From the NCBI GenBank assembly GCA_003347645.1, contig QDFX01000014.1, forward strand, positions 1 through 64,000: a DNA stretch of 64,000 bases, read 5' to 3'. Position numbers and translations under genes: made by a program. Below, piece by piece: positions 40,747 through 42,322 of the stretch (positions within the stretch are counted from its first letter, which is position 1; each line of letters starts with the position of its first letter). Under the pieces are notes generated by a model. That model had not been told where the DNA came from. It did no database searches and saw only the letters and a program-made list of their open reading frames with translations. Source of the DNA: Rhizobiaceae bacterium CPCC 101076. GTDB lineage: Bacteria > Pseudomonadota > Alphaproteobacteria > Rhizobiales > Methylopilaceae.

Positions 40747-40771
40747 CGAACCGGCATTGCCGGACTATCGA

Positions 40772-40826
40772 CAAAGGATCGGGGCGCGTTGCGGTTGAAC
40801 CGTGACAGCGCCCCGATCCTTTGTTT
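40772..40826 (+). terminator. Long-stem terminator after the chemoreceptor gene
   Basis: CAAAGGATCGGGGCGC (40772-40787) pairs perfectly with GCGCCCCGATCCTTTG (40808-40823), a 16-bp stem. The 20-base loop contains a smaller hairpin CGGTT-GA-ACCG. Only a short T run follows, but the position 25 bp after the stop fits termination. Confidence 0.82.
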
Positions 40827-40873: not shown

Positions 40874-42040
40874 ATGAAATCTGCCTGGGCCATCGTCTAT
40901 GACGTCTATCTGCGCTTCACCGCGCATGACGCCTGGGCGATCGCGAGCCATGTGGCGATGTCGGTGCTACTCGCTCTGTTTCCGTTCCTGATCGTCGTGA
41001 CCGCGCTCGCTTCGCTGATCGGCACGCCGCAGGTCGCGTCCGAGGTGATCGGGCTGGCGTTCGAGGGATGGCCGGAGTCTCTGGCAGCGCCGCTGGCCGG
41101 TGAAATCACTCGTGTGTTGACCGGACGCCGCCTCGACCTTCTGACGGTCGGTGTCGTCCTTCTGCTGTGGACTGCGTCCTCGGCGGTCGAGGCGATGCGG
41201 GTCGCGCTCGTCCGGGCCTATGGCGTTCCGGACCTCAGGACCTGGTATTTCAATCGTCTGCAGAGCACCGGCTTCATGCTGCTCGGCGCGGCCGGCATGC
41301 TCGTGCTTGCGGTGGCCGTCGTCCTGTGGTCGCCCATCTGGGAGTTTGCGGTCCGATATTTTCCGGAGATCCGGGCAGCGACCTGGTCGGACGAGTTCTT
41401 CCGCTATAGCGCGACCGGCCTGTTCCTCGCGGGCGGGCTGATCCTCGCCCATCTGTGGCTGCCGCCGCAGCGCGTGCCGATCCTGTTCATCCTGCCGGGC
41501 ACCGCGCTGACCATCGTTCTCTGGCTCGTCGGCGCGTCCGTATTCGGATACTGGCTGGCGCGGTTCAGCAATTACGCCTCCACCTATGCCGGCCTCGGCG
41601 GCATCATGGCGGTGATCTTCTTCCTCTACATGAATTCGGTCGCCTTCATTCTCGGCGGCGAGTTGAACGCGGTTCTGGCATCCAGGAAGCGGGCAAGGGA
41701 TACGCGGCTGGCCCAGCAGGGACCGTCGCCGGAACCCGGCCCGGACGCGCACGTTGGTCCCCGAAAGGAGATCATCGTGACCGACCACCGCACGCACGAC
41801 ACCCCGCCCCGCAAAAACGCCACCGAGGCCCGTCAGGGCGCCAGAGGGACCCCGGTTCTGTGGGTTCTGATCTGTGGTCTGGCGCTCGCGGTCGTGGCGC
41901 TGTTCTTCTTCCTGTCGACGGATGTTCAGAATCCGCCGCCGGTGCCGGTAGAGCAGCAGCCGGTTGGGCCGAGCTCCGATGCGACGCCGAACAATGCGGA
42001 GCCGTCGCGGCTCGACGCGCCGCCCGGCCCGGCCAAGTGA
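40874..42040 (+). CDS. YihY/BrkB family membrane protein with an extra C-terminal membrane segment
   Basis: 388 aa from ATG 40874 (GGAG 4 bp upstream); TTG 40859 is possible. Residues 1-285 are the six-helix BrkB/YihY fold, ending FFLYMNSVAFILGGELNAVL. BrkB proteins are widespread; the older RNase BN label is wrong. The frame then runs without a stop through a hydrophilic link (about 285-300) into a 90-residue tail with its own membrane helix, VLWVLICGLALAVVALFFFL. That tail looks like a separate small gene in related genomes and keeps a strong internal ribosome site, so this may be an in-frame fusion. The last residues are Pro-rich. Confidence 0.88.
   Translation: MKSAWAIVYDVYLRFTAHDAWAIASHVAMSVLLALFPFLIVVTALASLIGTPQVASEVIGLAFEGWPESLAAPLAGEITRVLTGRRLDLLTVGVVLLLWTASSAVEAMRVALVRAYGVPDLRTWYFNRLQSTGFMLLGAAGMLVLAVAVVLWSPIWEFAVRYFPEIRAATWSDEFFRYSATGLFLAGGLILAHLWLPPQRVPILFILPGTALTIVLWLVGASVFGYWLARFSNYASTYAGLGGIMAVIFFLYMNSVAFILGGELNAVLASRKRARDTRLAQQGPSPEPGPDAHVGPRKEIIVTDHRTHDTPPRKNATEARQGARGTPVLWVLICGLALAVVALFFFLSTDVQNPPPVPVEQQPVGPSSDATPNNAEPSRLDAPPGPAK
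41777..42040 (+). other. Internal in-frame start: small membrane protein inside the BrkB ORF
   Basis: GTG 41777 is preceded by AAAGGAG (41764-41770) with 6-bp spacing, the best ribosome-binding site in this area. It would give 87 aa: a hydrophilic start MTDHRTHDTPPRKNATEARQ, a membrane helix and a Pro-rich tail. The ARQG-plus-one-helix layout resembles stand-alone small proteins I recall from this order. Seen directly: the site and frame. Separate translation is inference. Confidence 0.55.
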
Positions 42041-42322
42041 TCAGCGGCGATTGCGGTCTTCGGGCGGCAGGACTTCGTATTCCGCGTCGATGATCGTCTC
42101 GCTTGCGGACCGCGGCGCGCGGGCACTCTTTCGGGCACGCCAGCGATAGACGGCGTCCAGCACCAGGAGCGCGGGGAACACGACAAGGAAGACGCCGGTC
42201 GCCACGATCGCCAAAGTCACGACGATCGCGGCCGCGATCGCGCCGATCACGGCGATTTGCCATGCCGGCATGCGGGATGCGCGGAGGCGGAACAGGCCGA
42301 AGGGTTGGTTTGCGTTCATCAT
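42041..42322 (-). CDS. Hypothetical membrane protein
   Basis: 93 aa with two closely spaced hydrophobic stretches, AWQIAVIGAIAAAIVVTLAI and VATGVFLVVFPALLVLDAVY (about 20-60), then a basic and acidic cytoplasmic tail ending EVLPPEDRNRR. Its stop codon abuts that of the BrkB ORF. Family not recognised; two start Met codons are adjacent. Confidence 0.72.
   Translation of the reverse strand: MMNANQPFGLFRLRASRMPAWQIAVIGAIAAAIVVTLAIVATGVFLVVFPALLVLDAVYRWRARKSARAPRSASETIIDAEYEVLPPEDRNRR

Follow-up and report, generated by a model that had tools for sequence, protein, structure and literature searches.

Members of the BrkB/YihY family (PF03631 and TIGR00765) carry a membrane domain followed by a C-terminus that lies on the inside, and the function of the family is poorly known. 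Small stand-alone membrane proteins with a single helix form another family, which is spread across the order (loci L071 to L095) and shares a core around EARQG..G.PVL.VL. Fusion, fission, and translational coupling of neighboring genes are treated in passages of PMC3711429 in the context of predicted frame transitions, and a passage of PMC7043885 bears on internal initiation; our search of the literature found no published case of a fusion through stop codon loss. The locus described here resembles bacterial in-frame fusions, and bacterial short proteins that arise by internal initiation, in having two neighbors in one frame with the downstream start kept. Compared with the BrkB proteins of its congeners (293 to 321 amino acids), the protein encoded here is 67 to 95 residues longer, because its gene has joined the next one in frame. 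Compared with the small one-helix proteins of the order, as aligned in profile A1, its last part has the same conserved core, and the start site is shared within the genus, but here the small protein doubles as the C-terminus of a larger one.

Within the window (the whole stretch of 64,000 nucleotides that was analyzed), positions 40874 to 42040 of the + strand form one stop-free open frame of 388 codons, composed of a complete BrkB domain, a linker of 29 codons, and an 87-residue unit with one helix. Residues 1 to 272 (40874..41689, + strand) make up the BrkB/YihY-type membrane domain. The whole domain is present, with residues 18 to 271 matching positions 3 to 258 of the 259-position Pfam profile PF03631 (E value of 5e-42; 144.8 bits, where the cut-off is 33.7), while the NCBIfam model TIGR00765 scored 72.5 bits, 0.65 bits short of its cut-off of 73.15. 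A distant second BrkB paralogue is found in the same genome (G000:C12:70015-70830; 21% identity), and in one member of the family (G017:C1:3137436-3138286) the BrkB match lies in two adjoining pieces, a possible frameshift. The linker (41690..41776, + strand; 87 nucleotides, 71% G+C) is hydrophilic and not conserved, and it is open in the BrkB frame and free of stops in all frames. The Shine-Dalgarno-like AAAGGAG (41764..41770, + strand) stands 6 nucleotides ahead of a GTG at 41777 that is in frame with BrkB; from there runs the 87-amino-acid small membrane protein (41777..42040, + strand), which is supported by matches in relatives and by alignment A1. The ribosome-binding motif and the in-frame GTG ahead of a one-helix unit are thus present as the original prediction had described them. 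Residues 302 to 388 matched no family above the curated cut-off in Pfam or NCBIfam; the matches to DotU, DUF3185, CbiN, and CU044_5270 were far under their cut-offs, and we discarded them because they reflect a hydrophobic helix.

Hydropathy indicated one strong additional hydrophobic stretch at residues 322 to 353. Residues 273 to 328, ahead of this helix, hold 10 K/R and 7 D/E, and residues 350 to 388 hold 2 K/R and 5 D/E, a charge pattern consistent with a linker on the inside, an extra helix running from inside to outside, and a proline-rich tail outside. The AlphaFold model, made with no alignment, was poor (mean pLDDT of 55.1) and is informative on helix positions at most. Upstream, between a chemotaxis-like gene and BrkB, a strong inverted repeat followed by TTTGTTT (40771-40824; GGATCGGGGCGC...GCGCCCCGATCC) looks terminator-like by eye. 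Downstream, a 93-amino-acid membrane protein is encoded on the - strand (42041-42322), its end abutting the end of the fused frame at 42040, and it is kept in that place in all three congeners.

The genome search covered three other genomes of the genus (G001, G002, and G003) and 14 genomes of the family outside the genus; a scan of species genomes yielded a single relative, L066, whose contig has the length of the G003 contig (245,521 bases) and is apparently identical with it. BrkB and the small gene adjoin in all four genomes of the genus and are separate genes in each of the three congeners. In G003, BrkB has 293 codons and stops 37 nucleotides ahead of the small gene; in G002, it has 300 codons and stops 40 nucleotides ahead; in G001, with 321 codons, it reaches into the small gene, an overlap of 65 nucleotides in another frame. 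The matching GTG and a Shine-Dalgarno-like site for the small gene were found in four of four genus members, and in the three congeners the purine-rich site before the GTG matches AGGAGG at five of six positions. The order of the flanking genes on both sides is also kept in all three; these neighbors are presumably rhomboid-like, TspO-like, and chemotaxis-like genes, then BrkB, the small gene, the 93-amino-acid gene, and onward. Comparison with relatives, the check that the original prediction had proposed, finds the two units apart and the GTG start retained in each congener.

BrkB tails elsewhere are short and variable: past the residue matching position 272, 29 BrkB relatives have 1 to 49 residues (median, 21), against 116 here, which bears out the earlier statement that the BrkB frame usually ends near residue 290. 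A search of 297 genomes of the order, a sample into which G001 to G003 were not drawn, gave among its listed rows one protein that runs past query residue 298 with no stop, namely the one in the window. In G005, of the sister genus g3, BrkB is a frame of 290 codons located about 28 kb away from the small gene, and the 12,001 bases around that BrkB (L065) gave no small-gene match. Matches to the small protein had E values of 5.8e-21 in G003, 2.7e-16 in G001, 1.9e-13 in G002, and 4.4e-12 in G005. Profile A1 at E values up to 0.01 found 111 of 397 genomes of the order, weak matches included, the weakest of which may reflect no more than a hydrophobic helix matching by chance; in genus g2 of the family, the small gene was weak at best (4 of 13 genomes at the same threshold). 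At the 29 small-gene loci examined (the 30 listed profile matches minus the window's own), BrkB was nearby at 3, all from the genus, and no BrkB lay within about 1.5 kb at the other 26, all outside the genus, among the matches listed.

Because the congeners keep the gene order with separate genes, and the small gene elsewhere has no BrkB nearby, the fused state is most simply read as derived, by a recent fusion of two neighboring genes; this polarity is drawn from the congeners and sister genera rather than from a tree. The original prediction had explained the fusion by loss of one stop codon. Its core, a fusion of neighboring genes with the downstream start kept, agrees with all three congeners, but stop loss by itself is insufficient. 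The linker after codon 272 is 87 nucleotides here and 85, 127, and 103 nucleotides in G001, G002, and G003, so that by plain length all three relatives are at 1 mod 3 and the linker here is at 0 mod 3; a net frame-changing indel is therefore needed besides the loss of the stop. G001 illustrates the same point, as the upstream stop before the small gene is missing there and yet the genes are not fused. A run of 30 open codons has a 56% chance under a first-order (dinucleotide) model of the surroundings and a 72% chance under the linker's own composition. In such G+C-rich DNA, chance alone would thus leave a linker open in more than half of cases, and an open linker is unremarkable by itself. 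The case for fusion rests on the relatives and on the conservation of the start site.

We consider it highly probable that the locus is a lineage-specific fusion of a BrkB-family inner-membrane protein with a small one-helix membrane protein of an order-wide family, from which both products would be obtained. In the proposed course of events, the hypervariable C-terminal tail of BrkB would have lost its stop, and an indel would have shifted the tail so that it reads in frame with the small gene. Initiation at 40874 would then give a 388-residue protein with BrkB, a cytoplasmic linker, one extra helix, and a proline-rich tail outside, while initiation at 41777 would still give the 87-residue protein; to judge by the sequence features, both the long and the short protein are most likely made. 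Tolerance of the fusion is probably explained by the variability of the two C-terminal ends and by the expected topology, with the linker inside, which suits both partners. This is an ordinary gene fusion with the internal start kept, and its persistence by tolerance is a simpler reading than a new function. A version in which both products are under selection, one being BrkB with the small protein tethered to its C-terminus as a further helix and the other the free small protein, seems improbable to us; we saw no sign of selective maintenance, because only one of the four genomes of the genus has the fused form.

Two other explanations appear about equally doubtful. The first is that an assembly or base-calling error introduced an indel in the linker and joined two frames that the organism itself keeps apart. 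The fusion is present in only one of four genus genomes, with a linker phase unlike that of the three relatives, the assembly is in 38 contigs, and a TGA overlaps the GTG start (GTGA; frame +1, position 41778), which would give a classic 4-nucleotide coupled overlap were the linker in that +1 frame. However, with the linker set back to the phase seen in the relatives, BrkB would stay open as far as 42091 and span the small gene entirely, a stranger arrangement than the one now read; additionally, linker codon usage weakly favors the fused frame (-1.4 bits, versus -19.2 and -14.4 bits; 29 codons), and the site is far from the ends of its 113,128-base contig. An assembly error is thus an unlikely source of the fusion. 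The second is that the internal start has become silent, so that the locus yields the long protein alone. An internal start site can be blocked by ribosomes translating from upstream, and ribosomes arriving from BrkB could act in this way here. Against this, the GTG and the Shine-Dalgarno-like site are both intact, with their spacing preserved, and stand where the relatives have theirs, and in G001 the matching site lies inside the BrkB frame, so such embedding is evidently tolerated. The remaining idea, that a BrkB subfamily normally has this long form, with an additional helix at the C-terminus, is barely credible: C-terminal BrkB extensions do exist, as in the weakly matching 412-position NCBIfam profile NF003256 (PRK04214; "ribonuclease BN/unknown domain fusion protein"), but that match is confined to the BrkB part (query residues 11 to 271; 20.5 bits, against a cut-off of 500), and the long form, which the original prediction had named as evidence against a fusion, is absent from all three congeners and from the order-level rows listed, so that on these sequences the separate genes already refute this idea within the genus.

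The four congeneric genomes show one gene pair as separate genes, as genes that overlap out of frame, and as a fusion, with the downstream start intact, which makes them a small but clear example of the merging of neighbors. For annotators, the 388-amino-acid "BrkB" at this locus conceals a second gene. If the possibility of two selected products were true, it would imply that in this genus the small protein regulates BrkB or physically associates with it, and if the pair works together, it would offer a hint at a partner for the BrkB family.
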